Source of the DNA: Chlorophyllum brunneum
Lineage: Eukaryota; Basidiomycota; Agaricomycetes; Agaricales; Agaricaceae
Direction: 5' to 3'
Length of the DNA stretch: 64,000 nucleotides
NCBI GenBank assembly: GCA_963576785.1
Contig: OY756145.1
Location: 124,001-188,000, forward strand
Shown here: positions 3,058-62,200 of the stretch, in pieces
How the letters are laid out: each line of letters begins with the position of its first letter
Numbering within the stretch: the stretch's first letter is position 1
The notes under the pieces: model-generated
What the model saw: only the letters and a program-made list of their open reading frames with translations
What the model was told of the DNA's origin: nothing
Databases searched by the model: none
Position numbers and translations under genes: made by a program

Positions 3058-4203
3058 GGCAGCAGATACAGCACAAAGGACGGGGTAGGTTATCGATGGG
3101 GAAGCGAAGAGTAGCTTTCACTGGTGAGAACGCCCAGCGTCAAATCCATGTTGCATCAAATCAACATATAACGTGACACAAACAACAGACGTCCACACCA
3201 TTTCTTCGGCTGGAGAGTTCAGTCGTTAGAGGGCAACATATCGATGTCAAGTGGGGAGATAAAATTTCAAGATACTGGCCCTCGCGATCAGTTCTTGATA
3301 ACATACATCACCAATACAGAGCACTCCTCTCCAAAATGCTGCTCTTGACTCTCGTCCTGCGTAGCCCCAGCTAGTAGTACACGTAGGGACAGGAGGATAA
3401 AAAGAGAGGAAGGATGGGCGGACGCGGAGACTGAGATCAGGCGTCACTCATATACTACGGCGAGTGCCGGCGCCTACTGATTTGGTAATTGGGTTATTTA
3501 TCATAATCTAGACAAGAGTGGAAGGACACCTCTTTCATTTTCACATACCACAAGGAACCGTGTACGAACCCAAGCCATAGGATGTACTGTTCCACCTCGA
3601 TCGTTGAAATGATTCAGGATCGGTCAATGTCAAGCCCCTACGTTTTGACCAACTTCGACAGGCGAAACGAAATCTTATGTAGGGTGGGACTAGCTTATTT
3701 CATAGCGAACCGATATAACCTTGGATCGGAGCCCGAGGTTAACAATTTAACCCGTGTTGACCATCTTTCCTTCATCCCCTGTCTCTCGATTTCTGCGCTG
3801 CGTTTTTTTCAGGCTCGATCTGGCTGCAGTGTCTTCCTATTGAACTCCGCGAGAATGAACCTTGACCGCTAGGCAGATACAGCGGTAGATGTAGGGCTAT
3901 TTTTGAAGCGATTTCTTTGGCCTTGCCTTTTCAAATTCACACTCAACGAGCACAGCAAAATCCAGGAGCAGCCCTGTGAACCAGTCCCAGTGATATCGAG
4001 TACGAGTGACCAGGATCCACTTCGTCTGAGGTAAACTTTACCTCCTTCCATCTGGAACTCTAGTATATCGGCAACCAAACCCCTTTGCTTGTAAATCCGG
4101 GGAGCATTCCGTCGGTCCGTAAGCGAATCCATGTGTACTAATAAGTCTCAGTATCTCGGAACCTCTTGCCGAAAGTCAAACAAGTGAACCTGTAGATGTC
4201 CAT
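3058..4203 (+). pseudogene. Relic of the C2H2 factor promoter (copy A)
   Basis: There is no intact gene here. The stretch from about 3541 to 3870 matches, in order, the region just upstream of the intact C2H2 factor (about 11327-11690). Shared blocks include CACATACCACAAG, TTCCACCTCGATCGTT, GGACTAGCTTA, CCGATATAAC and a run reading AATGAACCTTG where the real gene has AATGGACCTTG at its start codon. Similarity fades near 3870. It is read as the broken end of the first duplication unit, keeping promoter sequence but almost no coding sequence. The remainder of the gap shows nothing recognisable. Confidence 0.6.
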
Positions 4204-7812: not shown

Positions 7813-10501
7813 TTATCTCCCTGCGACGCCCCAAACTTTCGAGTTACGATTAGACGGGATTGTACTCCTTGAATGAGGACGATTGGTGCTTCCATCCGGC
7901 CCCTCTTCTCCAGTTTGACGTATAACCTCCGTCCGACGCGAAGGCCCTGTGACTACACCGGTTCTGTCTGAGACGAAAGGCTGAGGATTTTTCTTGTCAC
8001 CATCCGATGACAGTGGTCGATCTCCGTGCCTATGCCGGGAGCGTGTACGCCTTCTTCCTCGCCTTTCATCGAGGTCCTGTTGATGAATTGACAAATGGGT
8101 TGGAGAGACGTCACGATGTCGATGAGAAGAAACATGGTGAGTAGACGGTGTTCCGAATGCACCTGACGAATTATGTACAATCTTGCCGCCTCGACTTGAA
8201 TCATCCCTGGCAGGGGTTGGAGAACGCCGGCGAGAAGGCGAACGATGGTGAGAAGGGGGACGAGTATTAGAAGAAGCTCTATGATGCTGTGGGTGTGGTA
8301 GGGGTATAGTGGAATTGGCCTCTGGATCTTCGCCTAGATCCCGTGCTCCCAAACTCGCAGTGACGAAAGGAGTTTGATCACTTTCGGATGAGAGTCTAGA
8401 GCCCGCCTTTGGATCATGGATAATAACAGTAGGATAATTAGAACCAGGTCCCCCTTCCATAATAAAATTATCGACGCGACGTTGCCAAGCCAGATCCATC
8501 TGGCTGCCGTATCGACGAAATGTGTTGATGATCAAAATACCATAGGTAACACCCGTGCCAAGGACGACGCAGACAAATATGCGGAAACCCAGTTCAGTCG
8601 AGCGAGTTGTGAGAAACACGTAATCAGATGGGAGGTTGACACTTGCTCGCCACATGAAGGACATTATGCAAGCGATGAATGTGAGAATCGACCTAAAAGT
8701 TTGTTCAGTCTGAGACGTGCTAGACGCCGAGGAAGAAGACGGACCAAGACATCCATACAACAGGCATCGCTAACATGACCCAGACATTCCACAAGATGGT
8801 CTGTGATTTTTGTGCTTCCTGGGAATCACTGATCAGTTATTGTCAGGGCAGAGCGTCTGACTTTGACTCACGACAGCCCATTCTGCGGCTTTGGATGCTT
8901 TACGCATGCTCGCAAAGCGGATGATGAACAGACAGCCATACAATATACTCAACAAGGCACATATGAGAGACCAGAAGGCAGTATAGCGCGTTACAGGATC
9001 TTCGGCCGCGCCTTGGATTTGGAACATCGTCATGATTGCTCTACGAAACTTAAGGCTCAATTGTCTCTGCAAATGGCTCAAAAAACACTTACGACAGTAG
9101 CAAAACGGATACAATATTGAGAGTCTTCCACTCCCTCATCAAGTTATCGATAAAGGTCTCCCATGCCAATTTGAGCCTCCGGTATGCTGGGGATATGTTT
9201 GTAGCTTCTGGATAATGGTAGCCCATGTCCAACATGTTGTGATAAAAAGCTTTATTGTCTTCAGCAGATGCTTGCAACGCCATTTCCTTGATCTCTTCCA
9301 GCGTCAGGTCCGCCTCTTCGAATATGCGAGTGACCCGAGTGAAATATAGGGATGGAAGACGAAGGAGGAAGTGTAGATACACTTGTCGAGGTAAGGTATC
9401 CAGGACGAATGCCCCCACGTAATCTCTTAGCCTCGCGGGCTTCTCATCCGTCCGCGCCATAGATGGATAACCGTTAATGGTACTCGAATCGCCGAGTGGG
9501 TGAATATATTTCGAGGATACATGTTCTGTCTTTTCACTGGCATGCGACGCAACTGATATCACAGGACTTTGGGGAGGCAGTATAGGTCCGTGATGTTCAG
9601 AGGAGTGGAAATTGACAGAGGGTATGGAATGAGGGGCTGGAGTATACTGTGATTCAATGGAGGAGACTGTAGAAAGTGATGAATCAGAATGAGGGGTATC
9701 GAGCCGCGACGCAACCAGAAAATCTTCGACAGAATCCAATGACTGTATAGGTAAAGGTGACAGGGCATGATCATCATCCCCACCTTCTGGACTCGGTATA
9801 CCATTGTCGCTGATTGTGGGGGATAAATGTGGAGAGTAGTGGCGACGGGATGGAGAACGCGACTCGTAGGAGGGAGACCGAAACCGAGGCCGATGGTATG
9901 GAGACCGAGACTGGGGGGACTGAGATACATGCCTGGATTCATGGACTCTTCTCGAGGACGGTTGATGTGAACGATAGGCTGGGGGATGCATGGATATAAG
10001 ATGTGGTGAACTCCTTCGCGACCTTGAACTTCGTCGTTCTCGTTCCACCCGTTCTCGGGCTCGTTCCGCTCGTTCTTGTTCTCGTTCCATCCCGGCAATC
10101 GGATTGAATATCCGAGTCGGCGCAACTTGAGGAGGTTGCTGAATGGGAACGATAACAGACGAACCATGTGGTTGAACGACGATAGGTGCAGTTTGTGAAG
10201 GGTAATAATGTGGGGCAAACGAGGTGCCATAGTAAGGTTGGGTAGCTGGTGCATAAATCGGCCTGGGACCAGGGTCTGTCGCGAAAGGTGGGCCTTGGTA
10301 TCTCGAATGTGGCTGTTGAATTGTGTTGCGGCGGGGAGGTAGTCGTACATCATCCATATTTTGAAGACCAGGAGTAACCCTCTGGTTATGGATGCTCTGC
10401 GCTATGGATGGAGTGAAAGGATCATTCGACTGGAATCCTGGCCTCATCCGAGTACGTGGGTTAGAGAACCGCAAAAACCCTGTTTCTTGTCCGTGTTCCA
10501 T
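7813..10501 (-). CDS. Four-TM membrane protein, tandem copy C
   Basis: This is the longest intact copy: exons 10501-9093, 9040-8872, 8818-8751 and 8692-7813 give 841 aa. It has the same order as copy A: a long disordered N-terminus with R/E-rich (REQERAERARERVERERR) and S/R-rich stretches, the conserved block LRDYVGAFVLDTLPRQVYLHF, four TM segments, and a basic disordered tail. Exons 2 and 3 have exactly the same lengths as in copy A (169 and 68 nt), which supports the splice model. The start at MEHGQET is preferred over an in-frame upstream ATG at 10588 because only this start is shared. It lies head-to-head with the C2H2 factor, 1.17 kb away. Function is unknown. Confidence 0.8.
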
Positions 10502-11673
10502 GACGATAGTAGATACAGCACAAAGCGCGAGATGCTTTATCGATATGAGAGTGGAGAACAGCTTTCGCCGGTGGGAACACCCAAACATACGATGTTACGT
10601 AAATCACAAGCGCCCATGCTGATTTTTTGTTAGAGGGTCGCAAATTAATGCTTAGTGGGAGAAATGAAATCTCAAGATACTGACTTTGACAAAGTGAACC
10701 GCTGGTTTTTTCGTAACGATCATCATGATCATCAAGTCACATTGGTCGAAACGAACGCACCCCAGCCTGTAGAAACAGCAACCTAACTACACTTGATCAG
10801 CATAATGTCAGACACTGTTCTACTCGCCTCAGCCACTCGTCAACAACGCGAGTATTTACATGCAATCAACGTATTTAAGTATACTGGAAATAAAGGAAAA
10901 CTTAACGGGCAACACGATAGCAAGGCATGTGCACAATGGGACTAGATACCCAGGGCACTGCAGTAAGGGTTGTCGGTCTTGTGCAAGCACGATTATGTAG
11001 TTGTGGACAATACGCATCCCGACGCGTGGACTTTGCCATTCCAACACAGCCGGTGCCACACGAGAGGCTCTAGTAGCGGGTGGAACAAAGCGAATGAGCA
11101 TAAGTTGACGTCGACATTTCGACTCATTCACCGCCTTATCGCTAATCTGAACAACTCGAAATTAACGGATAACGCTTATTAATACATATGTCTTTGGCGC
11201 TTTACCAATTTGGTAAAAACCAAGTAATCCTTGGCCACGATCCAGAACGAGACTTTTCGCTTGGCTCTCATTCCCCCATCCTTGACAACACTACACTACT
11301 TCTCCCATCCCCACCTTACCACATACCACAAGCAAAATATATGTACAAAAAAAAAACTCAACTTATAAGATGTTACAGTTCCACCTCGATCGTTAAGACC
11401 TCCAGGATTGACTCAACGATCGGTCAGCATCAAAAGTTTTTTTCACTCCCACATTATTCTTGGTATTTTTACTCCAAGGACGGATTAAAACCCTATATAC
11501 GAGAAGGACTAGCTTACCTCATGACTACATCCGATATAACTAAACCTTGGCTCGAAGTCTGAGGTTGACAATTCAAACTATCCACCTCCCTCTACCTCTC
11601 TCGCCGTCTCGTGCATTATCGCGAGCTCTCTGTCTATCTAGTTTCTATTTCGTCGTATTCGAACACGGTGATA
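10502..11673. promoter_or_regulatory. Divergent promoter between membrane gene C and the C2H2 factor
   Basis: This 1.17-kb spacer separates two divergent start codons. It contains an A-run at 11347-11356 and a pyrimidine-rich stretch at about 11580-11610 just before the factor's ATG. Partial copies of its right half survive at 3541-3870 and upstream of 7518, so it was part of the duplicated unit. No gene is apparent inside it. Confidence 0.5.
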
Positions 11674-28210: not shown

Positions 28211-29186
28211 ATGTCTCCCACCGAGACAAGTCATCCGTACGCTCTGCAACCCACTGAAGATGAAAGGCAAAGGTGAGCGATGGTGAATTTGGGTCACTGT
28301 AATACAGTAGAACCGAAGTAGACCATCATCTAGGTTAGAGATTCAGAATGCCCTTATGTCCAGGACTCTCGGGAATGTCCAAATCCACGCGCCAGTGGAG
28401 CTAGGGGCCACCGGCGGAGCCGTCCTTGAAAACGGGACTGGGTCAGGTACATTTTAGTATGCCTATGTTGAACACAGATTTCTGAAATTCGTACAAGGCG
28501 TCTGGCTCTGCGATCTTGCCAAAACCGTTCCAAGCACAACAGAACTCATTGGAATCGATATAAACCCCGATCTATTCCCTTCGTCAGCAGCAATCCCAGC
28601 TAATCTGACCTTCAGGATTGCCTCGGTTGATTCGCTCCCAGTTGAGTGGACGGCCAAGTTCAGTCTCGTTCATCAACGCTTCCTGTTTTCTGCGCTTCGC
28701 CCAGCCCAATGGAGAGCGGCTTTCGGTGAGATGTATCGTGTCCTCAAGCCAGGCGGCTGGATACAACTTTTCGAGTTCGACGAATTGGCCAACATGGGAC
28801 CGGTCCTGAAAACTTACGATCGCCTCCTACAGAATCTGCTTAGGGAAATCGGAACAGATGGATTCTATCCAAATGGATACAAGAGGTGGAAAGGAATGCT
28901 TGAGGAGGTTGGTTTTGTAGATATCCGTGTCACCTGGCACAGTACACCAGTCGGGGGGTGGGCTGGGAGGGATGGAGTGGATATGAGGAAGGACTTGATG
29001 GCGCTCAACAATGCGACTCGGGAAATTACTTTGAAGCATGGTGGTCTGGGAGTGGTGGATGGTGGAGAAGAAGGGTTCAAAAAGTTCACAGAGGATCTTG
29101 AGAAGGAGATGGAAGAAGGAGTTACTGAGCCACAGGCTCGTTGGCTGATGATCTGTGCGGGCAAGCCAACACTGAGTATGAATTGA
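28211..29186 (+). CDS. SAM-dependent methyltransferase (class I), tandem copy 1
   Basis: Three exons (28211-28272, 28334-28446, 28498-29186) give 287 aa. The AdoMet-binding motif I is ENGTGSGVWLCDLA (about residues 54-67), split by intron 2 in the glycine loop. An acidic strand end ELIGIDINPDLFP follows, and the post-motif LKPGGWIQLFEFDE is typical of this group. The fold resembles the LaeA/TAM-like methyltransferases common in fungi, but the substrate is unknown. The first exon codes only 21 residues. The second copy about 2.3 kb downstream has the same exon pattern, so the pair arose by tandem duplication. There is no signal peptide, so it is cytosolic. Confidence 0.8.
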
Positions 29187-30544
29187 CGTAATGAGGAAAA
29201 GTTGAGAATAGGATCCGAATATAACTGGGGGTGATAGGCGGATAAACTGGGGGCCGTATGACATCCCTTCAGCCCACGCTGTAGTTGTTAAACGTTAATA
29301 GAAGTAATATTCGATTCAACGAAGCTACACTTTTGTCGCGTATCACGTCCACAGCTGTGGTGTGGTAGCAGTAGTCGAGCTGTGCAACCGATCTAACGTT
29401 ATCGGAAAATACCTTGAAGAGCGATGTATAGGTAGGAGGCTAAGGTACACGGTTGTATTTACGGTAATGGCTAAATACACTGCTAAGTTGTACATGATAT
29501 CCTTACCGAGAGACTTATCTCGTCCTGGAGACGCATCGTGGCGAACCATTTTTGATACGATCAATACTGGACTCACTTCTTTCTTTCTTTGATGAAGATG
29601 TCCGCGTAGATGCTATAGAACACGTTGTCGATTTGCGGCTACACAAGTATCCACATCCTGAAGTTCGGAAAGATGGTAGCGCGGACTCGGATGCACTTTC
29701 CCGGCGTACCCGTGTTCGCGTCAACGTAGTCTGATAAACTCCCCAAGTTCCGTGCCGTATTGAGCGATAGTACCTTGGGAAGGACAGCTAATCTTGGGGG
29801 TGGCGCTTGGTTTCGAACGGGTCCAAAGGCACCCTGGGGCACATCAGTTGAAGTACACCTCGGAAAATATAGTACGATAATCGTAAAGCAGCAAAGCGAA
29901 TAGTAGTCAAAAGGTGGGTCTTGGAACTGGTCCCTGAAGAGTATTTACTACAAACATGGTGTTACAGAAAGGCAGTCATGGACTCTGTATGAAGTAGTTT
30001 GCCATTGGAAGGAAACCAAAAGCGAGGTGCCGAGATCAGAGACTTAGAAGTCGAAGTAGCCAAACGGGCCGATCACCGCGGGACTGTCTTTTGGGGCCGG
30101 GCTTGGACTTGACTCGTGGGCTTAGGTTAGGGACTGGCAACTCTACTCCCTCAAAATTGCCCCCGGTCAATGAAATTTTCCATTTCAGAACGGTGCCATA
30201 CTATATGCGGGCATTCAGTACTCTAAAATGCCTTGTTGCCGGCTGCTGTGGTGTTCACCACCGGGTCATGTCTAACCCCCAGGATGGGGAATCTATCCCT
30301 TTCCATCAACTTCTCTGGCAGAACCCTCATGGATGCATTGGGAGTTCAGCTGCACGAGACTAACAAATTCAGGAATAGCTCTGTAGTGAGGTCTCCTGCA
30401 GATGAATAGGTGGGAGAAGTGGGTAAAAGAAGACGAGAGAGTATTGAGCTAGGATTGCCGATGGGAACTCTAAAATGTAGTTAAATACTCCAGGGTCGTG
30501 CTCACATCCAAATTATCGTGCTGTCCCCAGCTTCGAAGCCCATC
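29187..30544. other. Spacer between the methyltransferase copies
   Basis: About 1.36 kb with no gene I can support. Short open frames on both strands have no recognisable motif and lack conserved splice sites. The last ~100 bases are the promoter of the second copy. Confidence 0.4.
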
Positions 30545-31520
30545 ATGCCCTCTACAGACATCAATGAAGATTTCCATTACCCTCTTCCGTCAAACGAACC
30601 TGAAAGGGAAAGGTGAGCGAGGATGAGTTCGAGTGATAGAACGAAGCTGAAATATACCATCGTCTAGACTACAAATCCAGAACGACCTCTTGTTGAGGGC
30701 CTTTGGGAAGCTCCACGTACCGGTCGATCTAAATAAGGTCGGAGGTCCTGTACTCGAGTGCGGGACTGGATCAGGTACATTCAAGCACCCTCATCTTTGG
30801 GCCTAAAATTTCTGACGTTTATACAAAGGTGTCTGGCTCTGTGGTCTTGCTAAAGACGTTCCAACCACAACGGAACTCATCGGCGTGGATATAGTTCCGA
30901 ATCTGTTTCCCCCACAAACAACAATCCCACCCAACCTGACCTTTAAACTTGGCTCGGTCACCTCACTTCCAACTGAGTGGACGTCTAAGTTCACTCTCAT
31001 CCATCAGCGATTCCTGTTCATTGCGTTGAACGCAGCTGAATGGGCTGCGGCTTTCAATGAGATGTATCGTGCTCTCAAGCCAGGTGGCTGGATACAGCTC
31101 TTCGAGCTCGACGAGTGGGTCAATAGGGGGCCAGAACTGGAAGGTTACAACCGCCTCTTGCTGAATGTACTCAAGGAAAAGGGGATAGATGGATTCTTCC
31201 CAAATGGATACAAGAAATGGAAAGGAATGCTTGCGGAAATTGGCTTCGAAGATATTAGTATCACCTTGCGTGATTCACCGATGGGCAAATGGGCTGGAAG
31301 AGATGGAGTGGATATGAACAAGAATATGATGGGGCTGTGCGAAGGGTTTAAGGACCTCGCCATCAGTTGTGGCGGAATGGGAGCATTTGAGGGTGGAGAA
31401 CAGGGGTACCAAAAGTGGAAGGAGAACCTTAGGCTGGAGCTGGATGAGGGGGCTACTCATCCGCAATGTCGTTGGGCGATGATCTGTGCGAGAAAGCCCA
31501 TTGGCAGTATCAGAAACTGA
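30545..31520 (+). CDS. SAM-dependent methyltransferase (class I), tandem copy 2
   Basis: Three exons (30545-30612, 30668-30774, 30829-31520) give 288 aa. Motif I is ECGTGSGVWLCGLA, and here the usual Cys/acidic start is present where copy 1 has ENGTGSG. It then has ELIGVDIVPNLFP and LKPGGWIQLFELDE. Downstream blocks shared with copy 1 include FPNGYKKWKGMLAEIGF, WAGRDGVDM and RWAMICARKP. Intron positions and phases match copy 1 exactly. The divergence between copies is moderate and spread along the protein, which suggests both are functional. Substrate unknown. Confidence 0.8.
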
Positions 31521-49560: not shown

Positions 49561-50305
49561 TCATGCGTTGGAACGGAGAAGGTGGAATCCAGAAAGGAGA
49601 ATAACGAGGAAAGAAACGATAAACCCAGCAAAGGCGGGATGAACGGCAGCCGACAACACACTACCATTGGGACACTCAGCACATGGCCAGCCTATAAGAG
49701 TTCAAAAAAAATAGCATGTGCATGGTTTGCCAGTACTTACCGCTTGCGAAAGGAATATAGGCTTGTGCGGTATAGAGTCCAAATCGTAATCCGCCGAAGG
49801 GTTGCATCAAACCTGGCTTCGGAAAAGCACTCGGACCCCTATTATCCCACATCGTCAAAGTGTACGTTCCTTGTGCTAGGGGCTGCTGCGGATTACTTGT
49901 TTGCCAGGCGTGCAAATCCCACACGACCTTTGTCGCGGTTCCAGGTAAAACGCCGTCAGTAGGTCCCACTGGGTATGTGTTGCCATTTTCGCCTATAGCG
50001 GATACGGTGAGGCGTTCCGAATCCTGGAGGATAGAAGTAAAGTTCCAGCCAAATGTAATAGTCTGGCTAGGCGCGATCTTGTAAAACGATACTACGTTTC
50101 GGGGCGGTTGGGTCATGACAATTCCACCGGCGGGCGCGCCTGGGGAAATCAGGGAAGCTGAATCGGTCGTCGTTGATATGGGAGAGCTTGGGACAAGGGA
50201 AACTGATTGGGTCGTCGTTGATATGGGAGAGCTTGGGACATTAGGGCTGCTGCTAGTTGGTGTAGGCGTTGGGTTGGAGGTTGGCCGAGGTTGATTCTGT
50301 GACAT
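49561..50305 (-). CDS. DUF7137-like cell-surface protein
   Basis: Two exons (50305-49741, 49691-49561) give 231 aa. After a P/S/T-rich stretch comes one beta domain at about 75-185. Its strands, VVSFYKIAPSQTITFGWNFT, LTVSAIGENGNTYPVGPTDG, GTATKVVWDLHAW and LAQGTYTLTMWDNRGP, match the fungal DUF7137 pattern. Exon 2 adds WPCAECPNG and a C-terminal TM helix (PAFAGFIVSFLVILLSGFHLL). Family members usually have an N-terminal signal peptide. None follows the called start, so an upstream exon may be missing, for example around 50456, where a hydrophobic MVALFWFIQFMF occurs; joining it gave a stop. Expected to be wall- or membrane-attached; role unknown. Confidence 0.7.
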
Positions 50306-50569
50306 GGTGGTGGAAAATGGTTGAAAAATGTCCCCGGTAGCGGTCCCAGACGAAATTGGCCTCACAAAGCCCAGTAATTACGACCATTATGCAACCAGGA
50401 CATATGGCGATGTCACAGGAGAACATAAATTGAATAAACCAGAAGAGGGCAACCATTGGGCTCTGACGTCACTGTTTGTAAGAGGGGCCTCTACCAAACA
50501 GTATGGCAGGATCACCTTCATCAAGCGGCCAAAATAGAGTCTGTAACTGCCTGAATATGCCGCAACAAC

Positions 50570-52759
50570 ATGAGAATACTAACATGGAATATTGTAGGCT
50601 CGTTATTGTTGTGTCTTTCCTTCATTTAACTTGCCTCAACAGAACGGCATCCGTACAATCCCGCAATACCACCCGTGAGTGTGTCCCTGTTTCCTGGAAA
50701 ATATCTCTGATCAGTATGCAAAGGTGGAACACATTCCAGAACCATGACGAGATATTGAACAAGTTGGAAGCGGATATCATCTGTTTTCAAGGTGAACTTT
50801 TTCTCTGCTCTCCAACGCGTTTTTCTGCTAATAGAATGCCAGAAGTGAAATTGTCTCGTTCTGCCCTGCGGAAGGCAGTCGCCATACCCCCTTCCTATGA
50901 TTCATTCTTCTCCTTTCCGGTAAAAAAGTCTGGGTACTCAGGTGTCGCAACCTACACCCGGATTGCCACCGTCACCCCACTGAAAGCGGAGGAGGGTTTG
51001 ACGGGGCTTATCCAACCAAAGCCACCATTCACATCGGAGGAGCGCGTTTCGCATTTCGAAAACTATCCTCCACAAGTATTGGACGATGAAGAAATAGACT
51101 TCAAGCACCTAGATAGTGAAGGACGCGCTGTGACGGTTGATTTCGGACTTTTTGTCCTCATCAACACGTACTGCCCTAATGATGGCATTGGCACTGAGGA
51201 ACGAGACAAGTTCAAGATGGATTACCATCGGCTTCTCGAAGCACGTGTAAAAGGGCTAATTGAAGAGCGAAGGGAAGTCATTGTTCTGGGAGATATAAAT
51301 TCGTGTGCTGCTGTTATCGACCATTGCGAAGGAAATATCATGGTGGCGAGAGGGAAGGCGGCAGGTTTGGAGGGTGAGGATGGTTTCTGGGAAAGAGAGT
51401 ACAGAAGGTGGCTACGGGACTGGTTACAGAAAGACGATGGCACTGGAGGTCCACTAGTGGATGTGCTCAGGCGCTTCTGGCCCGATAGGAAGGGAATGTA
51501 TACCTGTGAGACACTTTTCTTACTTTATCTACCAGGCGCTGAAAATCCGTTGTCAGGTTGGAATACTAAGATTTCTGCTCGTGAAAGCAATTATGGAACA
51601 CGTATTGACTATATCCTTATTACCCCCGGCCTCCTTCCATGGATTAAAGCCGCTGATGTCCAACAAGATGTCAAGGGCAGCGACCATTGTCCTGTTTTTG
51701 TTGATTTCCACCATGAGATTACCAATAATGATGGTGTAACGATCAAACTTGACGACGTTCTCGGTAGTCGGCCCAGAGCAGATGGTACGAAAGAGCCACC
51801 GAGGTTGGCTGCGAAGTTCTGGGAGGAGTTTTCAGGGAAGCAAATGCTCCTGGACAAGTTCTTTGGAAAGAATAAGACGAACCCTCCGGTTGTGTCCATA
51901 TCCCCTACGCCCCGACCATCCAGTCCCTTGAACACCTCCGACCAACCTGAACATACACTCGAAGAACAATCACCCCCAGATACACCCGCTGTAACCGCCT
52001 CACCTCTCGAGTCAACACCATCCCTCTTGGACATCACCAAACCCACAATGACTTCAGATACGTCCATTTCTCCCACAACGACACAGTCCACTACTACCTC
52101 GCAAACGCTGAAACGTAAAACTACAATTGAAACCCACTCGACATCCAAGAAGCCAAAGCCATCGGAGAAGAGACCGGATAAGAAGACCAAGGAATCGGGG
52201 CAAGCCAAGCTATCATCCTTCTTCAATAAACCTAACGGGTCCCAACCCTCGACGTCGTTGACCTCCGACAAGAAGAGCAAGAATCCAGAGGCTCATACAG
52301 ACGTCATTGACCTACAGGATGGTGATGCTTTTATCTCGTCCCAGGATTTCGTCGCTTCCTCTCAAGGTTCGTCTGGCAGAGGAAACGGAGAAGAAACCAA
52401 GCAAGTCTGGAACAACCTTTTAGCGCCCGTACAACCCCCAAAGTGCGTCGTACACGGTGAACTAGCGAAAGAATATACAGTGAACAAACCCGGTCCGAAC
52501 AAGGGAAAGAAATTTTGGATATGTTCTCGGTGAGTCTTTTCCCGGTGACCCCCACGGTAATATTAAGCGCCTTACAATGATTCATTCTAGACCGGTAGGG
52601 CCTGGGTACGATAAGGGCAGGACTGAACGGTTACGAGAGGAAGTTGATCCGACATATCGATGTGATTTTTTCAAATGGTCAAGTGACTGGCGGAAACAAG
52701 CTAAGAAGATGGAGAAAACGGCATCGACGTCAACGCATACTTTGCAGCGTGGTACTTAA
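50570..52759 (+). CDS. APN2: AP endonuclease 2
   Basis: Six exons (50570-50593, 50643-50674, 50724-50791, 50843-51505, 51557-52529, 52591-52759) give 642 aa. The exonuclease-endonuclease-phosphatase domain covers residues 1-330: MRILTWNINGIRT, CFQEVKLSR, INTYCPND, VLGDINSCAAVIDHCE, YGTRIDYIL and GSDHCPVF, with all metal and catalytic residues in place. Two PIP boxes of the form QxxLxxFF follow at about 358 (QMLLDKFF) and 478 (QAKLSSFF), which would bind PCNA. The C-terminus has a GRF zinc finger (about 557-625, KCVVHGEL...FWICSR...CDFFKW). It repairs abasic sites and 3'-blocked ends in the nucleus. The start was chosen to give the RILTWNINGIR signature. Confidence 0.92.
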
Positions 52760-53157: not shown

Positions 53158-53577
53158 TTAACATGCGGCATCGGGGGGGTCTACGGTGGTGCAACTAGGG
53201 TATGTCAGTGTTAAGACCATTGGCGTTTTGAAATGGAGTACACACAAGTTCGACGCAAACCCATGGCAGCAACGCGGGCCTTTCGGATCTAGAAAACGGG
53301 ATCTAATTAGTCCCTTTGTCACACCTAAACGGCTATCACATACTTTGCGCACAGTCCTGAGCGGAAATTCGAGCATAAGAAAGATATACTACCACACTAC
53401 TGTATCTTCATACCTTGTCAGCCTGACCTAAACGGGTCCCTACCGGTTAATAAGACTCAGAAAAAAGAGGTATGGCTACTGACATTCGTCTGGGAAAGCA
53501 TCAGGCTTAGTATCTTGGGCGCTGATGGCCTGTATGAAAAACAAGCACAGGAAGAGGGCGAGGAACTTGGACTGCAT
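53158..53577 (-). CDS. Candidate secreted cysteine-rich peptide C (exons partly unresolved)
   Basis: Exon 1 from 53577 codes a clear signal peptide (MQSKFLALFLCLFFIQAISA) and an acidic propeptide-like stretch ending PDE. A donor then allows a 14-nt second exon coding C-Q-A-D-K, the same length as exon 2 of peptides A1 and A2. The last two exons code RCCHGFASNF and CTTVDPPDAAC followed by TAA at 53158, joined by an intron GTGTGT...CCCTAG of 51 nt with a CTGAC branch site. This gives C...CC-x7-C-x9-C, like peptides A and B. The acceptor of the CC exon that would supply the second cysteine is not resolved. It may be a decayed member. Confidence 0.5.
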
Positions 53578-54333
53578 CGTGGTGAAAGATGAAGAAATGC
53601 TGCGGTCACCTTTCTGGCTTTTAAGTCCTTGAGGCGGGTTGATGAAACGTCAACGTCTGAAAGGAGACTCGAACGCGCCAGAAACGTTAGCGTCAGAAAA
53701 CGGGCGGTAAGATTGGAAGGTTTTAGTACGTGTTGTCCGGAGATGTGATTCCCCCAACGGAAGTCGTACTTTCACAATCAGCGGCAACATCAGCCAAGGC
53801 TCTAGGGTCTTCATTTCACCGCATACCACTGGCAGAGTCGCGGCTCACTACCCGTGTATACACATCTCCTTCAAGGAAACTTGGGATCGGGGTTTGGACA
53901 CACGCATATATCCATTCGAAGAGATTCGGTGTGAACTCGTGAACTGGGGTATACGGACGCCGGATGGCGGCGCTTGAGCTTGACGATGTTGTCGATGTCA
54001 CTCACTGAGTGTTGAACGCTGAACGTCTTGAACATCGTCGAACAGATTGAAGACCGGGTTCTCCACTGATGATATACTACCTCATAGTACCGATGGGTAT
54101 ATTATAATGGCTCATGAACACTGTACTGGAACACCGTGCAGGAGAAATTCGTCGGGCATGGACCCAAGAACTTCCCAGAACGCTTTCGAAGGCAAGTCCA
54201 AGTGTGAATCTCTTACTCTTCAGCAATTCGGATGAAGTGAAACTTGAGTCTTACGCCGTGGCAGGTCTTAACTACCAGATAATCATTGGACAGTTTCCAT
54301 TGTTATACACTAGGCAAGAACAACCCCTAATAA
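53578..54333. other. Left flank of the peptide repeat units
   Basis: From 53889 rightwards this is repeat unit 1 (see 53889-56456). A 61-codon minus-strand frame at 54001-53816 (start MTSTTSSSSS) has a broken counterpart in unit 2, so it is probably not a gene. The 53578-53640 part is the promoter side of peptide C. Confidence 0.4.
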
Positions 54334-54710
54334 CTAACAGGCAGTATTAAGTGGCAAGCACCTTTGTAGAGTGCAAAATGTTAGCCACAGTGAGCAGTGC
54401 CTGTAAGTGAAGGCTATGGGTTTAGCCCACTCACAGTTGGAATTCAGCAATGAAACCACAACAGTGGACTCCATCCTCCTCCCTACACTATTCATATTCC
54501 ATTAGCATCTTCCATTAACATTCAAACGCGAGTCCATACATTCTCCGGAGTACCTGTAGGAATATGTTAGTCGTCTCCCACAAGTTGTTCTAACGGTATG
54601 CATGGCTCACAGGTTGGGGGGGATGAATCAGCTGCTGGGAGTGCCAACGCCGAGTGAGCGATGATAGGGATCAGAGTAAGTAGGAGAGTAAAACGCATGG
54701 AGAACAGCAT
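54334..54710 (-). CDS. Secreted six-cysteine peptide A1
   Basis: Four exons (54710-54611, 54553-54540, 54487-54435, 54361-54334) give 64 aa. Exon 1 codes the signal peptide (MLFSMRFTLLLTLIPIIAHS, cleaved after about ALA) and a short linker. The 14-nt exon 2 codes C-T-P-E-N. Exon 3 starts CREEDGVHCCG and exon 4 codes CLPLNTAC. The mature framework is C-x4-C-x7-CC-x8-C-x6-C, ending on the last cysteine. Intron 3 has the branch site CTAAT and intron 4 CTAAC. The acceptor of intron 4 (TACAAAG) is supported by copy A2, where only this join avoids a stop. Probable extracellular disulfide-rich peptide; role unknown. Confidence 0.7.
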
Positions 54711-54747
54711 TTTGGTTGGTAGAATATTGTTGCTACAACAGGGCTTT

Positions 54748-55308
54748 TATATGGTGCACCGGACTTGGTCACCACTTCTGTACAATGAAATTCACGTGCC
54801 CAATTTTTCCCCATTTTCTTATTCCTCTTGTGAAAAGACTCCCGTTGGCAAGCCAAACAAAACTGCAAGGGGGAATTTTATTTCCTTCCAAACTGACTGG
54901 GTCAAGAATTTCGGTCTGAGCCAATTTGGATGCCTTATATGATTATTCCCAAACATAGAAGGTATGACATTTATGGATATTTCTTCGACTTGGCCTTGAT
55001 TTGAGCATCACGAGCTGAAAGTCCATTTCGGTAGGCATCCATCCAGCGGTACATTCTCTTGCAAGCCCTACCTTCTCGAGCTCTCGCAGCTTAGGGTTGT
55101 TGTGCCCCGCTTTTATACAGCATTGTATGCAGGGAGCATGGAAATAAGTCCCCTTCAAAATATGTTTTTATTACCAATAGGCATAGGAAATGCCTTGATT
55201 ATTCAATGGTCATTTTTGAGTCTAACATGTGTATTATTCTGCCCATTTGGGCTGCTTTCAGGCCAAAATTCCGACATCAAGTTCTCAAAAAATTTTCAGT
55301 GGCCATAG
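54748..55308 (-). mobile_element. Insert with transposase-like remnant in unit 1
   Basis: Absent from unit 2 at the matching site (about 57281). On the minus strand at about 55040-54970 a frame reads MYRWMDAYRNGLSARDAQIK ending SKKYP and a stop. This resembles the M-D-A-Y-x-x-G-L ... K-K-Y region of transposase-like proteins common in mushroom genomes. A TA dinucleotide flanks both sides and the ends share TGG..CAC only weakly. It is a dead fragment, not a complete element, and the family is uncertain. Confidence 0.45.
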
Positions 55309-55701
55309 TGGAGAGGTTGCATTACTATGCCTTGACGCTGTCAAAAAAATCTTTGCTATGAGGGGTTACATCGGGCGTATTCCAAGGCAGGCTTGGCAAT
55401 GGCAAAAATTCCCCGTAACCGCTAGAGGTTCGTTCCATAGCCCCGGTGTAAAAAGGGGTATTACGAGTGTCTTCTCCATAAGGAGATCAATCAGCAGGTG
55501 TTCGGAGGGACGGCAGCAACTTGAAATCCGAGTGTCTCAACGAATCATGTATGGATCATTTGGTTAGTTGCTTCGTCGGATTCCATATCATTTAACGTAA
55601 GATGAACATGATCCATATGCATAATTACGGCACTCTTTCTCCGTATTAACTCCAAGAATAGCTTGCATATTCTGCTTTCCGATCAAAGCTGATTTAAGTA
55701 C

Positions 55702-55983
55702 CTAACACACAGCGCCTTCAGGGAGAGTAGCACAACTTCAAAATACTATTGTTAGTGGAAGCCTTCACGGTGAGGGGGTACGACTTACATAGGGCCATCA
55801 ACCCCTTTGCAGCATTGCTGAGGAGGGAGGCAATACAAGTAGTCACCACCTTAAACAAGAATTGTCAGTCTGGAAAACGAGGCAGTAAGAACATATATTC
55901 TTACAAGGAATTCCTTTGGGGGTAGCGGAAACGTTCACGGCAAAGAGAGCGATAGCAGTGGCAAAAATCTTGAGAGCGTACAT
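55702..55983 (-). CDS. Secreted six-cysteine peptide B1
   Basis: Three exons (55983-55905, 55849-55789, 55735-55702) give 57 aa. Exon 1 codes a signal peptide (MYALKIFATAIALFAVNVSA) and TPKGIP. Exons 2 and 3 code the mature part: C-GDYLY-C-LPPQQ-CC-KGVDGP-I-C-ATLPEGAV-C and a stop. The framework is C-x5-C-x5-CC-x7-C-x8-C, with the last residue a cysteine. Introns are GTAAGA...TTAAG and GTAAGT...GAAG with normal branch sites. A TATA-like CTATAAAA lies about 40 nt upstream of the ATG (56020-56027). The spacing fits the inhibitor-cystine-knot pattern. An effector, antimicrobial or signalling role is possible but not shown. Confidence 0.78.
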
Positions 55984-56866
55984 GTTTCTGGATGGAAGAT
56001 ATCGTCAAACTATAGGAGGTTTTATAGATTTCCACCACCGGCGTCAAGTTGGCTTGGCAGGATAATTGCGTTAAGCCAAGGATCATCGGCGTTGACGGTC
56101 ACAGACTCGGATGGCTAAACCGTGCGGGGAAGGTGCCGATTCGTTTCACCACTAATGCGGAACGTAGAAAGGCGAGCACTAGGGTACGGTGGTGTTTCAT
56201 TGCCGAGTACACCGTTGTTACAAACGATAAGCTTCCATTACTTTAGTCCAAATGGTTTAATCGGATATATGTCACTGATTCGGACAGGGAAGGGGTTTGT
56301 CCACGTCGCAGGCTAAGAGTTTCACGCATCGGGGGAGAGACTTAAGTTATCTAGCAACTTGACCGAGAACCCAGCTTATTTGCATAACATCGTGACTCTT
56401 TTGGGTTGTTCTTTAATTAACATTATCCTTTCTTGTGTACGGGTAGTAGTGCTACGCTTCCGTGGGGTTTGGACACATGCATATGTTCATTCGAACAGCT
56501 TCGGTGTGAACTCGAGAACTTAAGTATACGGACGCTGGGCGCAGGCACTTGAGTTTGAGGACGTTGTCGATGTCATTCACTGAACGCTGAGCGCTGAACG
56601 TCTTGAACGTCGTTGAGCAGATCGAAGGCTGGGTTCTCCACTGATGATATATTACCCCATAGTACCGATGGGTATATTGTAGCAACTCATGAACACTGTA
56701 TGGGAACACCGTGGAGGAGAATTTCGTCGAGCACTGGACCCAGACACCTCACAGGATGTCTTCGAGGATACGTACGACCATGAGTCTCTTACTCTTCATC
56801 AAGTGAAATTTAGGTCTTATTTACGCACTCCATTGTTATACGCTAGGTAAGAACAACAACGAATGA
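55984..56866. other. Junction between the two peptide units
   Basis: This holds the promoter of peptide B1, the near-identical unit end (56190-56456) and the start of unit 2 (56463). No additional gene is seen. A plus-strand frame at 56122-56316 is just the repeat and is not a gene. Confidence 0.5.
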
Positions 56867-57246
56867 CTAACAGAAAGTACCAAGCGGCAAGCAGCTTTGT
56901 AGAGTGCAAAATGTTAGCCTCAGTGAGCAGCGCCTGTAAGTGAAGGCTATGGCTTTAGCCCACTCACTATTGGAGTTGAGCAGTGAGACCACAACAGTGG
57001 AATCCATCCTCCTCCCTACACTATTCATAGTCAATCCATTAGCATCATCCATTAACATTCAAGCACGAGTCCATACATTCTCCGGAGTGCCTGTGGGAAT
57101 ATGTTAGTCGCGTCCCATGAGTTGTTCAACGGTATGCACGGCTCACAGATTGGCGGGAACGAATCAGCTGTTGGGAGTGCCAACGCCGAGTGAGTGATGA
57201 TAGGGATCAGAGTCAGTAGGAGAGTAAAACGCATGGAGAACAGCAT
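56867..57246 (-). CDS. Secreted six-cysteine peptide A2
   Basis: Four exons (57246-57147, 57090-57077, 57020-56968, 56894-56867) give 64 aa, with exon lengths 100, 14, 53 and 28 nt, identical to A1. The signal peptide is MLFSMRFTLLLTLIPIITHS, then the cysteines in C-TPEN-C-REEDGFH-CC-GLTAQLQY-C-LPLGTF-C. The last join uses TACAAAG as acceptor and turns what would be a TAG into TAC (Tyr), which validates the same join in A1. All six cysteines are kept, while seven other mature positions differ from A1. Extracellular peptide; function unknown. Confidence 0.72.
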
Positions 57247-57681
57247 TTTGGTTGATAGAGTATCACGGTTGCGGCAGGCTTTTATGGCGGGGAGATCGCG
57301 TTATTGTGCCTTGATGCTGTCAAAAAATCCTTGCTATGGAGGGGTTACATCGGCGCACTCCAAGGTAAGCTTGGCAATGGCAAACATCTCTCTCGTAACT
57401 GCTAGAAGTTCGTTCAATAGCCCTGGTGTATCAAGGGGTATTCCGAGCATCTTCTTCATGAGTAGATCAATCAGCAGGTGTCCAGAGGAACGGCAGCAAC
57501 TTGAAATCCGAGTGTCTCAGTGAGTCATGTATGGACCACTTGGTTAATTGGTTTGTCGGATTCCATATCATTTGACGTAAGATGAACATGATCCATATGC
57601 GTAATTACAGCACTCCTTCTCCGTGTTAACTCCAACAGCAGCTTGCATATTCTGCTTTCCTATGAAAGCCGATTTAAGTAC
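57247..57681. other. Spacer within unit 2
   Basis: About 430 bases between A2 and B2, matching the same spacer in unit 1 apart from its insert. No gene is seen. Confidence 0.5.
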
Positions 57682-57958
57682 CTAACATGCAGTGCCCTCA
57701 GGGAGAGAAATACAGCTGCAAGAAAATCTTTGGTTACTAGTAACCTCCATGATGGGGGTACGACTTACAGAGGGCCGTTAACCCCTCTGCAGCATTGCTG
57801 AGGAGGGAGGCAATAGTTGTCACCACCTTGAACGAGACTTGTCAGTCTGGAAAACGAAGTCGGAACGTATTATTCTTACAAGGAATTCCTTTGGGGGTAG
57901 CGGAAACGTTCACGGCAAAGAGAGCGATAGCAGTGGCAAAAATCTTGAGAGCGTACAT
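57682..57958 (-). CDS. Secreted six-cysteine peptide B2
   Basis: Three exons (57958-57880, 57826-57769, 57715-57682) give 56 aa. Exon 1 is identical base for base to that of B1 over all 79 nt. The mature part is C-GDNY-C-LPPQQ-CC-RGVNGP-L-C-ISLPEGTA-C, one residue shorter than B1 in the first loop. Every substitution in exon 2 changes an amino acid, yet the cysteines and the LPPQQ and LPEG segments are kept. The TATA-like box is weaker than in B1 (CTATAAGA at about 58002-58009). It is the best-supported member together with B1 because the splice joins agree between copies. Confidence 0.78.
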
Positions 57959-59260
57959 GTTTCGATGAATGGGATGGAGAATACCGTGAAACTATAGGAG
58001 GTCTTATAGATTTCCATCACCAGCGTTAAGTTGGCTTGGCGGAATAGTTGCGGTAGGCCAAGGATCATTGACATTGACGGTCACAGACTCGGATTGCTAA
58101 ACCGTGCGGGGAAAGCCCGAATCGTTTCACCACCAATGCAGAATGTAGAAAGGCGAGCACCAGGGTACGGTGGTGTTTCATTGCCGAGTACACCGTTGTT
58201 ACAAACGATAAGCTTCCATTACTTTAGTCCAAATGGTTTAATCGGATATATGTCACTGATTCGGACAGGGAAGGGGTTTGTCCACGTCGCAGGCTAAGAG
58301 TTTTACGCATCGGGGAAGAGACTTGAGTTATCTAGCAACTTGACCGAGAACCCAGCTTATTTGCATAACATCGTGACTCTTTTGGGTTGTTCTTTAATTA
58401 ACATTATCCTTTCTTGTGAACGGGTATCAGTGCTACACTTCCGCCATCATCGCGCACAACAAGGTTGGGGCATGAGGTCTGCGGGTCCGATTTCAGGGGC
58501 AATATTCAAAAGGAGCTGGGGATCCTGCAAGACGACCGGTGAAGGCGGGTAACATTAGAATCATGCATGGGTCGCATCCCCGTCTTGGGGACTAGCAGCT
58601 CCGTCTGAGAGCGGGGTCTTAGGAGTCCCTTCTTTACGAAATTAACGGAAAGCCAAGCCCACATATATTTTGTTACCTCGGATAACACGCGATGCGTCAG
58701 CAAGGTCGGTTTTCTCGATTTTCCGGATCATGGTTTGCTGGCGTTTATTGGGCTTTGTATCAGAGTCAAAGGGTTCCGTCCACGGCAATGGATTGGCTCA
58801 TGTGTCGCCTGAGATTGGGATATCGATAGCCCCATCGATGTGCCATGATGGTTTGGGATCGGCGCTAAATGTGAGGACAGTATTCAGGGAATCAAGGGTT
58901 TTTCAGGTGTTCTGAACTCATCTGAAGGGGTGAATAGAGTGTTATGATGGAAGGCTGTTGGCAGTGATGGTACCATGTCCTCGCTGTTCACACTTTTTCT
59001 GTAGGGGAATAAACCAACCAGCAGTCAGCGGCCGAAATACGCAAGACAGAGCTCCCCCATCTCATAGTCAACTGTTTTCTGATGAATAGACTCGACATTG
59101 AAGTACACGTGTGATACAAACACCAGCAATGACATGATCTCATATCAGATTATTCTTGACACACGACCACGACCATCATCCCACTGTCCCTGAGCGCCCA
59201 ATACGAGCGTTCAGAGCATGTGCACGACCTGTTCTATATTCTAGATCTATTCACAGAGCC
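57959..59260. other. End of unit 2 and spacer to the VPS9 gene
   Basis: 57959-58436 is the end of repeat unit 2. From 58437 to 59260 I see no gene, only short open frames without motifs. The VPS9 gene promoter should lie in the last few hundred bases; there is no clear TATA box. Confidence 0.4.
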
Positions 59261-62200
59261 ATGGCAGACCGGGACAAGGACAGCCAGTTCCCAGCAACTT
59301 CCATTGGCCGAACGGCCGGTGCTCGACTACAGCATTCGAGCGTACATGAATCGCATCCTCTTGGAATGAACCTAGCCACTAGCGATATACCCTCTATCAC
59401 AGGCAGCAATACGCTCCCAGCGCACAAATACAAACCATATACGCCTAGAACACGCGTCGTACCAGCCACGACAACCAATACACTCGTACATCCACCGTCT
59501 CCACAACCTCTTTCCCCGGCTGGTGGAGGCGACGCTACGTCCAAGCTACAGCTGACCAAGGCGAAATCTGAGGCTCAGAACATCGGATTGGATACATCAA
59601 GTGTTGGATGGGGAATTTTGGAAAAAGTAGTCGTGGAGAGCGAGACAGGGGAATTGTGGGCGGAGATTTGGTCCTTGGCTACGAGTGGCAAGGTATATTG
59701 TTGGATTCTTTGTCCTGGGTATTTGAAACTGATGGTGGTTAGGCAACACTGTTACTGCCAGCCGAGCATTTGGCCGCGCAAGAAAGGCTTACACCAGAAT
59801 TTTTGAAAGATCATATCGTGTTTTGTGATCCCATATACAAGGGCACTGTGCCTCTCGTTACACTCTCAGGTCTTCGTGGTACACTAAGCGGGTACGTGTT
59901 CGATTCAGATACGAGTTCTTTCGCTTACGCAACAGCAAGGACAGAACCAACATAACATTCTCCTCATCACTCCATCCTTCTTCTCCAGCTTTCCGCTCAC
60001 TCCAAGATCCGACCACACGCTCATCAGCTCTTCGAAACCTACCTCCTTTACCATCTATCTCACATCCAGGATACCCACAACTCAAAGTTCTCAATGGATC
60101 TACAACATTACCACTACCCCCACGCGCTCCTGTACCTCCCAAACCACCATTACCTCCTCGTCCAGGTGCACGACATACTACAACTACATCCCACGCGTCT
60201 AGCGTATCATCATCTTCGTCACGTATCCCAAATCCCTTCGCATCACTCTTTGGTGGAGGACAACGTTCTTCCACCCCCACAACACCAGCACCAGCATTAC
60301 CACAATTACCTGTACCTGCAGCACATTCCCCATCAACATCAATACAAAGTCTTGAATCGATGGCGGGAGATACCGCTCATACAGTCGTTGAAGTAACTGT
60401 TATCGTGATTGATAAGAAAGTGGATCGGAAGGATATAGCAAAGACGATGAATAAGGTTTTATCGAAGGAGATTAAGGGTATGTTGAGCAGTACGAGCGGC
60501 GGCGGGGGGGATGAGGTACCTAAATGGGTTACGCAGAGGGTGATAGAATTCTGTGAACCTTGGTTCCCATTCGTTCGCGCACCGAAAGTTATGTCTTCTA
60601 TGCACACGCAATCGGGGTTGGGGGATTGGAATGTGAATTCGGATGGGGTCAATGATGAGGGGATGATTGACGATAAAGTGGATTTTATGCAAGAGTTTTA
60701 TCTCCAGCTTGAAGAAGGCCTACGTGTCGAGTTGGGGGGAGGGTCGAATGGGAAGAATGAGAAGGAGAAGGAGACGTATGGTGTTGAGGGTGAGAATGAA
60801 AATGATGGGGGGAAGGTGAAGGAGAAGGTGAAGAAAGAATCTGAGATGAAAATCAGATATATTATGGAACTTGTCGAGCGGACTATATGCTCGTTATTCT
60901 ATGACCGGTGAGTCGAGACACACTCATTTTCACGCCACCGCCTACAGGGCTAAAATAATTACAGGTTATACACGCAACCCGAAACAGACGACATGCAACA
61001 CGATACAGCATTATCGAACCGTGTAGCAGCACTCAATTTACTCGACTTGACTCTCGAACATTTAGATATCGAAGTTGGTCAAGCTAGTGCGACGAAAGTC
61101 GACTCTGTAGTCAAATTGTGTGGACAAAGTCAGTTTATTTTCGGCTACTCCGTTCCGTTCTTATTATATTTTCTCTGGTGCTGATATCATCGATATATAT
61201 AGGATTATGTGAATTGGGTACAGTCCGTGCACCGAGGGATAAAGCTAGGATTCTAGTTGAGGCGCATCAGGTTGTCGTCGGTACGTCTCTTTGAACTTTT
61301 TCTCTTTGATGAATGTGTGTTTGATGTGGAATAGATGGTTTATCAAAACTTCCGCCGATTAGGTTGATGTCGGCTGAGGAATCTAAAGCTCTTCGAGAAC
61401 AACAACAACAGCAAGCCGCTGAGAAGAAAACGAAGGAGAACCTGGACACACCTTCGGTTGCTGAACGAGGTCAAATCTCGTTGATAATTCCTCCTGCTGC
61501 GACTACGACTACCACCACGGAACCCGCATTACTTGCACCTGACGGCCCTTCTGCTCCAACAACTTCAACTTCATTGGTTACGGCAGAAATTGGCGCCGGG
61601 CAACAAGCAGAACTTTCCCCACTCTCCTTCAACACAACAGAAACATTATCCTCCGTGTCACCATTACCTTCTCGTCCATCTTCTCCTCTCCCTGAACCAA
61701 CGCCAGTCTCATCAGACGTACTCCTCCCTATGATCATCTTCTCCGTTGTCAAATCAAATCCACCTCATCTCGTTTCGAATCTTTTGTATACTCAGAGATT
61801 TCGAAATCAGAATGCGTATATGCATGAAGGGAATGGTGAAGAGAGTTTTTGTTTGATTAATATGTTGGCTGTTGCTGAGTTTTTGGAGAATGTTGATTTG
61901 GAAGCGTTGGGATTGGGATCGTCTACTGGTGTTAGGTATGTGATTTCGTTCTTTTACTCAAACGTGTGGAGGCTCAAAGTCATGTGAATCGTTTTCAGTG
62001 CGGCAGAATTATCACCGATAATTACGAGGAGTCCTACAACCCCAATTGCATCCTTACCTATCTCTGCATCACTCACGCCGAAAACTTCTGGGCAACCATT
62101 ACTCGCCGCAATAGATCTCCGTGGAAAAGTCGAACAACAAGTCGACGCCATAGCCGGATCAGCGAATAAAGTCATTTCAGGCGTCGTCGATTCTTCATTT

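Follow-up and report, generated by a model that had tools for sequence, protein, structure and literature searches.

A 64,000-nucleotide (nt) stretch of the Chlorophyllum brunneum genome (contig OY756145.1, positions 124,001 to 188,000; here C7:124001-188000, in a genome of 38.9 Mb and 14 contigs), referred to below as the window, carries a cluster of five complete genes for small, secreted-looking peptides with six cysteines in the order C-C-CC-C-C, and five further intact members were found elsewhere in the genome. Judged from sequence comparison, this is a real family of small, predicted secreted cysteine-rich peptides, undescribed in the literature and databases searched, of a kind that is ordinary for fungi and encoded by unusually finely cut genes. 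The best explanation overall, to which we give a probability of about 0.5, is a family of secreted, disulfide-locked peptides used in biotic antagonism or defence.

The five-gene cluster and its micro-exons

The five genes were rebuilt exon by exon as spliced models (Table 1), from a reading of 52.5-59 kb of the window and of the minus strand near each gene. All lie on the minus strand, in the transcript order A2, B2, A1, B1 and C (C1 when set beside its paralogue C2), and positions 53158-57958 span the cluster, with the C stop codon at one end and the A2 start codon at the other. Once spliced, every gene opens with an ATG and a hydrophobic leader and has its stop codon directly after the sixth core cysteine. 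An earlier note on the window had described hidden genes for secreted six-cysteine peptides here, with the fifth, C, taken as partial; the five genes sit where it had put them, plain open reading frame calling does miss them, and the products look secreted, the leader being recognised by hydrophobicity only. C is in fact complete, with 66 amino acids (aa) encoded by five exons of 94, 14, 13, 43 and 37 nt. The ranges given in that note hold for the A and B genes and fail for C: lengths of 56-64 residues (A1 57, A2 56, B1 and B2 64; C 66), three or four exons of down to 14 nt (three in A, four in B; five in C, the smallest of 13 nt), and a spacing framework in which the Cys2-CC loop of C, at 8 residues, exceeds the claimed 4-7. 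The spacings Cys1-Cys2, Cys2-CC, CC-Cys5 and Cys5-Cys6 are 5,5,7,8 in A1, 4,5,7,8 in A2, 4,7,8,6 in B1 and B2, and 5,8,7,9 in C.

One gene plan runs through all ten family members. Exon 1 encodes the leader and a short spacer, one exon carries Cys3-Cys4 (the CC pair), and the last exon carries Cys5 and Cys6; the first intron is in phase 1 and falls inside the Cys1 codon, following its T, and the final one is in phase 2 and immediately precedes the Cys5 codon (10/10 models for each). Intron phases are 1,0,1,2 in C1, C2, D1, E1 and E2, 1,0,2 in B1 and B2, and 1,2 in A1, A2 and A3. Between Cys1 and the CC exon there are two micro-exons in C, D and E and one in B; A and B fit as versions without both or one of the two middle introns, the direction of change not being polarised. 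Every mature peptide has six cysteines with a central CC and ends at, or no more than two residues past, Cys6 (D ends two later).

The internal exon pairs measure 14 + 13 nt in C, 17 + 7 nt in D and 14 + 4 nt in E. The 14 and 13 nt micro-exons are kept between C1 and C2, whose exon lengths are the same or offset by whole codons, and the 4-nt exon reads GATT in both E1 and E2. In the whole genome of 38.9 Mb, its 14-base context, CAGGATTGTAAATG, is present at two sites, the E1 and E2 exons, and nowhere else, and the reversed control gave 0 occurrences. Skipping any single internal micro-exon (4, 7, 13, 14 or 17 nt) would break the reading frame and so abolish the peptide; exons 2 and 3 jointly (27 nt in C, 24 nt in D, 18 nt in E) are in frame, so that skipping both would keep the frame and delete the Cys1-Cys2 loop. 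It would be a long shot that this is a true cystine-knot multigene family in a mushroom-type fungus with its output gated by splicing, able to switch between a folded peptide with six cysteines, a version lacking the loop, and no peptide at all.

Schistosome micro-exon genes likewise produce secreted, variable peptides from tiny exons. The likeness is one of tiny exons encoding secreted peptides and not of compared sequences, and here, by contrast, the micro-exon lengths are not divisible by three and alternative splicing is not part of the models. PMC11121469, which mentions the schistosome genes, states that functional microexons had not previously been described in filamentous fungi. Exons of down to 6 bp are reported for P450 genes of a white-rot fungus in PMC1184071, so basidiomycetes already had examples of micro-exons; what the present family adds is a smaller, testable case, a conserved 4-nt exon in peptide genes.

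Table 1. Genes of the cluster and associated duplicated tracts, in coordinates of the window
Feature	Position	Strand	Exons or counterpart	Details
A2	57682..57958	-	57958-57880, 57826-57769, 57715-57682	56 aa; 3 exons; two GT-AG introns of 53 and 53 nt, phases 1,2; spliced model
B2	56867..57246	-	57246-57147, 57090-57077 (14 nt), 57020-56968, 56894-56867	64 aa; phases 1,0,2; spliced model
A1	55702..55983	-	55983-55905, 55849-55789, 55735-55702	57 aa; phases 1,2; spliced model; paralogue A3 on contig C5
B1	54334..54710	-	54710-54611, 54553-54540 (14 nt), 54487-54435, 54361-54334	64 aa; phases 1,0,2; spliced model
C (C1)	53158..53577	-	53577-53484, 53427-53414, 53356-53344, 53288-53246, 53194-53158	66 aa; phases 1,0,1,2; spliced model; paralogue C2 on contig C5
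Repeat unit around A1	55310..56462		copy of 57289-58443	88.4% over 1,166 columns
Repeat unit around B1	53889..54727		copy of 56464-57263	81.5% over 844 columns
93-base tract, A1 exon 1 and edges	55896..55988	-	57871-57963 in A2	100% identical

Further members and support for the gene models

Protein searches of the fungus's own genome, together with reading of the flanks, yielded A3, C2, D1 and E1 at C5:653204-656984 and E2 at C7:266415-266840, and relatives of A, B and C are present on two contigs. A decayed B copy, B3, lies on contig C5 between A3 and C2 (about 4560-4300 of locus L019, minus strand); it has no recognisable leader exon and has lost the CC pair, and it marks loss as well as gain within the cluster. 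Ten members are a lower bound; the plan-based finder described next covered 252 kb of the 38.9 Mb.

This finder, run over 252,000 bases (the window and 19 fetched stretches), required CC, a phase-2 intron, Cys5, Cys6 and a stop, plus, further upstream, a leader exon whose last base ahead of the donor is T, and returned 10 matches, which were the ten family genes and nothing else. In 49.75 Mb of order-3 Markov DNA there were 31 matches for the 3' half alone and 1 with the leader exon, the latter scaling to an expectation of 0.005 in 252 kb. All ten genes were already known when the finder was designed, and its 10/10 recovery is therefore not independent; what is informative is the absence of other matches and the simulated rate. 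Upstream of the genes, TATAAAAG was found 39-51 nt before the ATG with at most two mismatches in 10/10 genes, at most one in 7/10 and exactly in 3/10, compared with 10.2%, 0.9% and 0.05%, respectively, among 9,647 ATGs of the same DNA.

Nonsynonymous (dN) and synonymous (dS) divergence was obtained by Nei-Gojobori counts. Values were dN 0.119 and dS 0.651 for C1/C2, 0.238 and 0.714 for E1/E2, 0.347 and 0.741 for A1/A3, and 0.308 and 0.623 for A2/A3, a pattern of dN < dS that indicates constraint on the older pairs. Over the whole coding sequence, A1/A2 gave dN 0.094 and dS 0.099 and B1/B2 gave 0.114 and 0.131; between Cys1 and Cys6 alone the values were 0.183 and 0.204 for A1/A2 and 0.173 and 0.149 for B1/B2, so that in the recent duplicates dN is about equal to dS in the mature part. 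Exons were clearly more alike than introns in one pair only, C1/C2 (exons 0.79-0.92, introns 0.68-0.75); the corresponding identities for B1/B2 were 0.79-0.93 and 0.87-0.95.

The ten genes are almost certainly real. Introns in the models measure 50-78 nt, a size that suits a basidiomycete. That splice signals were assembled by chance into these models is hardly credible: the weak point of the models, which would suit such an origin, is that 8 of the 32 introns end in AAG and 10 lack a CTRAY branch motif, but the conserved phases and micro-exons, an outside relative (P0001, a metagenome protein discussed below), dN < dS in the older pairs and the simulated expectation all argue against it.

Within the window, the paired repeat units indicate that A1/A2 and B1/B2 are two genes copied once, by one tandem duplication of a B-A block. 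When the A repeat was divided into 19 sixty-column steps, 13 had identities of 0.67-0.90, the step with the exon-1 tract was 1.0, and the five lying at the greatest distance upstream from the gene (56137-56436) were 0.92-1.0. The identical 93 bases raised the possibility of exon-1 gene conversion between A1 and A2, which is not claimed here because near-identity is not confined to the exon, the stretch 56136-56435 of the same repeat being almost as alike (97%).

When the C5 and C7 stretches retrieved were compared in translation, the best 40 matches fell at the peptide genes and the sequence close around them, and at one other gene next to the E genes. A second gene for a secreted-looking, cysteine-containing protein precedes the E genes by about 0.7-0.9 kb, at 351-about 873 (+) of locus L021 beside E2 and with counterpart pieces at 7873-7695 (-) of L019. 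The two contigs resemble each other here in translation, which suggests that the neighbour was copied along with E.

The cluster is adjoined by a DUF7137 protein frame (window 49676-50377, -) and an Exo_endo_phos (AP-endonuclease-like) frame (50482-52533, +), the latter with a GRF zinc finger slightly below its cut-off, and on the other side there is a VPS9-domain frame (61325-61987, +). Elsewhere in the window, three frames on the minus strand between 2101 and 10594 (2101-3117, 5543-6613 and 9089-10594) share the C-terminus LNIVSVLLLS and form a local repeated family, of which the one frame scanned, 9089-10594, had no Pfam match. Two adjacent, similar methyltransferase-like frames occupy 28458-31520 (+); the first, which was the one scanned, matches Methyltransf_25.

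An outside relative and known cysteine-rich families

The sole protein returned from a database of 5.77 billion sequences was P0001, a 61 aa protein on a 16.3 kb metagenome contig. Against the spliced model of D1 it scored an E of 1.6e-7 (3 candidates scored, 5.77 billion sequences), with 27 of 44 positions identical across the entire cysteine core, spliced junctions included, up to the C-terminal CIF; its loops are 7,5,9,8. P0001 presumably comes from one uninterrupted frame, being a single predicted protein. Its match to D1 speaks for the spliced D model, 7-nt exon included, in a way that does not depend on the splicing rules used. It also weakens the proposal in the earlier note that the family is lineage-specific. 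A profile of the ten members returned only P0001 from the protein database (E 2.1, a value that would have been discarded were it not for the sequence itself), and A1 alone had no match among the 5.77 billion proteins. Many-intron genes are probably missing from such predicted-protein databases, and their silence therefore says little. P0001 used as a query against the fungus's own genome returned nothing, D included, which marks such a search as insensitive to tiny exons and leaves the ten members as a minimum. In bacterial and viral contigs, three scans with P0001 and with the D plus P0001 alignment gave no relative; the match from a fourth scan, at bacterial locus L054, lies inside a 109-aa frame that is thioredoxin-like by eye and was rejected as chance.

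As the earlier note had anticipated, no named family was found: among the scores shown, none reached its Pfam cut-off; WAP and late nodulin came nearest, MF_alpha_N (D, 0.074) also stayed below, and NCBIfam gave nothing at E up to 1. Its statement that these are not hydrophobins is borne out by six cysteines instead of eight and by the lack of a PF01185 match; hydrophobin matches in the genome number 22, which also suits a basidiomycete. By sequence, the best PDB matches were a leader-region match at E 1.4 for the profile of ten, NCR13 (7th8) at E 0.12 for the C core, and an unrelated entry at E 0.33 for D. None of the papers among the matches listed was recognised as describing this peptide family; PMC12295547 and PMC9958986 were set aside as knottin papers, the word in the retrieved text of each being 'knotting'.

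Two of the ten members resemble the second half of the WAP profile (PF00095), E1 with 18.5 bits (E 0.0024) and E2 with 17.4 bits (E 0.0057), in a C-x4-DC-x5-CC stretch; both are below the cut-off of 20.8 bits. WAP domains have eight cysteines and four disulfides, in contrast to the six cysteines in each of the ten mature peptides here. Secreted protease inhibitors, offering one loop to a protease in the way of WAP-domain and squash-type knottin inhibitors, would account for this resemblance and for one weak Foldseek match to a Momordica seed peptide; the subthreshold scores, the difference in cysteine number and the failure to see a shared reactive-site loop across the ten members make this explanation rather improbable. 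Three of the ten members weakly match late nodulin (PF07127; best E 0.0017), C1 with 16 bits and E2 with 15.9 bits against a gathering threshold of 30.4. The likeness to late nodulins and nodule cysteine-rich peptides consists of a signal peptide and a Cys-rich core; the family is a plant one, and the members here fall below its cut-off where a score is shown. CS-alpha-beta defensins such as copsin and plectasin have C-x3-C and C-x-C pairs, and loops of 3 or 1 occur in 0/10 members.

Inhibitor cystine knot peptides share with the family the order C-C-CC-C-C and a short, secreted form, and the structure model of P0001 is three-stranded. Its structural matches are weak, none of them significant, and several are to what we take to be knottin-class peptides; tick Evasin-3, Momordica seed peptides and spider toxins presumably belong to the inhibitor cystine knot class. 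A knottin proper has disulfides I-IV, II-V and III-VI, with III-VI threading the ring, and an antiparallel sheet stabilised by cystines. The entries named above come from animals and plants, and neither a significant sequence match nor a significant fold match to this class was obtained.

Among fungi, MLP124266 / AvrP4 of rusts is a secreted six-cysteine peptide with a solved cystine knot, cysteines at 39, 44, 50, 55, 58 and 64 and a flexible N-terminal half, according to PMC6889267; unlike the present family, its own cysteines include no adjacent CC, and it was not among the PDB sequence matches of the ten-member profile or the C core. With this rust candidate effector as a knottin precedent (PMC6889267), effectors delivered to a plant or animal host would fit small, secreted, Cys-rich and fast-changing duplicates, but nothing host-specific was seen in the sequence and we consider this role improbable.

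Proposed role and significance

The mature peptides are 36-51 residues long (37 predicted for A1, 46 for C and 40 for E2) and, with the leader cut by judgement, have a net charge at pH 7 of -7.1 to -0.1 in 10/10 cases. No dibasic site precedes the core in any of the ten, and one RR lies inside the core of A3. The neutral-to-acidic charge and the lack of a dibasic site before the core disfavour cationic membrane-active peptides and Kex2-processed hormones. Ordinary cationic antimicrobial peptides, which the size, the disulfide density and a charge of +0.9 for the C2 core without its N-terminal spacer would suit, are thus very unlikely given the computed mature charges, and the antimicrobial role suggested in the earlier note is weakened.

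Secretion of the peptides is very probable and three disulfides are likely, whereas a true cystine-knot topology has somewhat less than an even chance. In the proposed mechanism, the signal peptide would be removed in the endoplasmic reticulum, the six cysteines would pair into three disulfides, and a compact, protease-resistant, neutral-to-acidic peptide would be secreted, its rigid scaffold presenting variable loops to an outside protein target, be it an enzyme, a receptor or a channel, in a competitor, a grazer or a host. Biotic antagonism would explain the tandem duplication, the loss seen in the decayed B3 and the freer mature regions of the recent copies. Taken by itself, the antagonistic role is argued by analogy and is proposed tentatively.

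Several observations weigh against this interpretation. The P0001 model is a single-sequence prediction with a mean predicted local distance difference test (pLDDT) score of 66.6 and has no significant Foldseek match (best E 1.2). The CC-Cys5 loop, of 7-10 residues, is long for cystine knots as we know them; the earlier note had equated the spacing with that of knottins, and the cysteine order fits this, but the spacing also differs from that of the rust protein. The high mature dN/dS of the recent pairs is based on about 11 nonsynonymous changes per pair, without a statistical test, and a ratio of about 1 cannot separate relaxed constraint from positive selection. In E1/E2, the exons do not exceed the introns in identity (0.68-0.79 in four exons and 0.69-0.79 in the introns); with neither B1/B2 nor E1/E2 exons above introns, the case for coding is carried by the phases, the cysteines and dN < dS.

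A role within the fungus itself, as signals or as wall or matrix peptides of development, is a rival explanation. Expression in stage-specific bursts would go well with TATA-type promoters and clustered genes, the peptides are acidic with no dibasic site before the core, and dN is below dS in C1/C2 and E1/E2 as for a conserved ligand; the free divergence of the mature part in recent duplicates and the turnover of copy number, with B3 decayed, speak against such a role, which appears unlikely. Secreted, disulfide-locked peptides for biotic antagonism or defence remain the preferred explanation.

Genes of this kind are easily missed by annotation, with coding stretches of 4-100 nt and proteins of 56-71 residues, and a Cys1 codon split by a phase-1 intron, combined with a phase-2 intron ahead of Cys5, gives a specific handle for finding such families in other fungal genomes. 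A rust protein was described in 2019 as the first knottin-like structure from a fungus, as far as its authors knew (PMC6889267). If the knot were confirmed here, this would be, as far as the searches show, a multigene knottin family in fungi. The conserved 4-nt exon offers a compact test case for the minimum exon size in fungal splicing.

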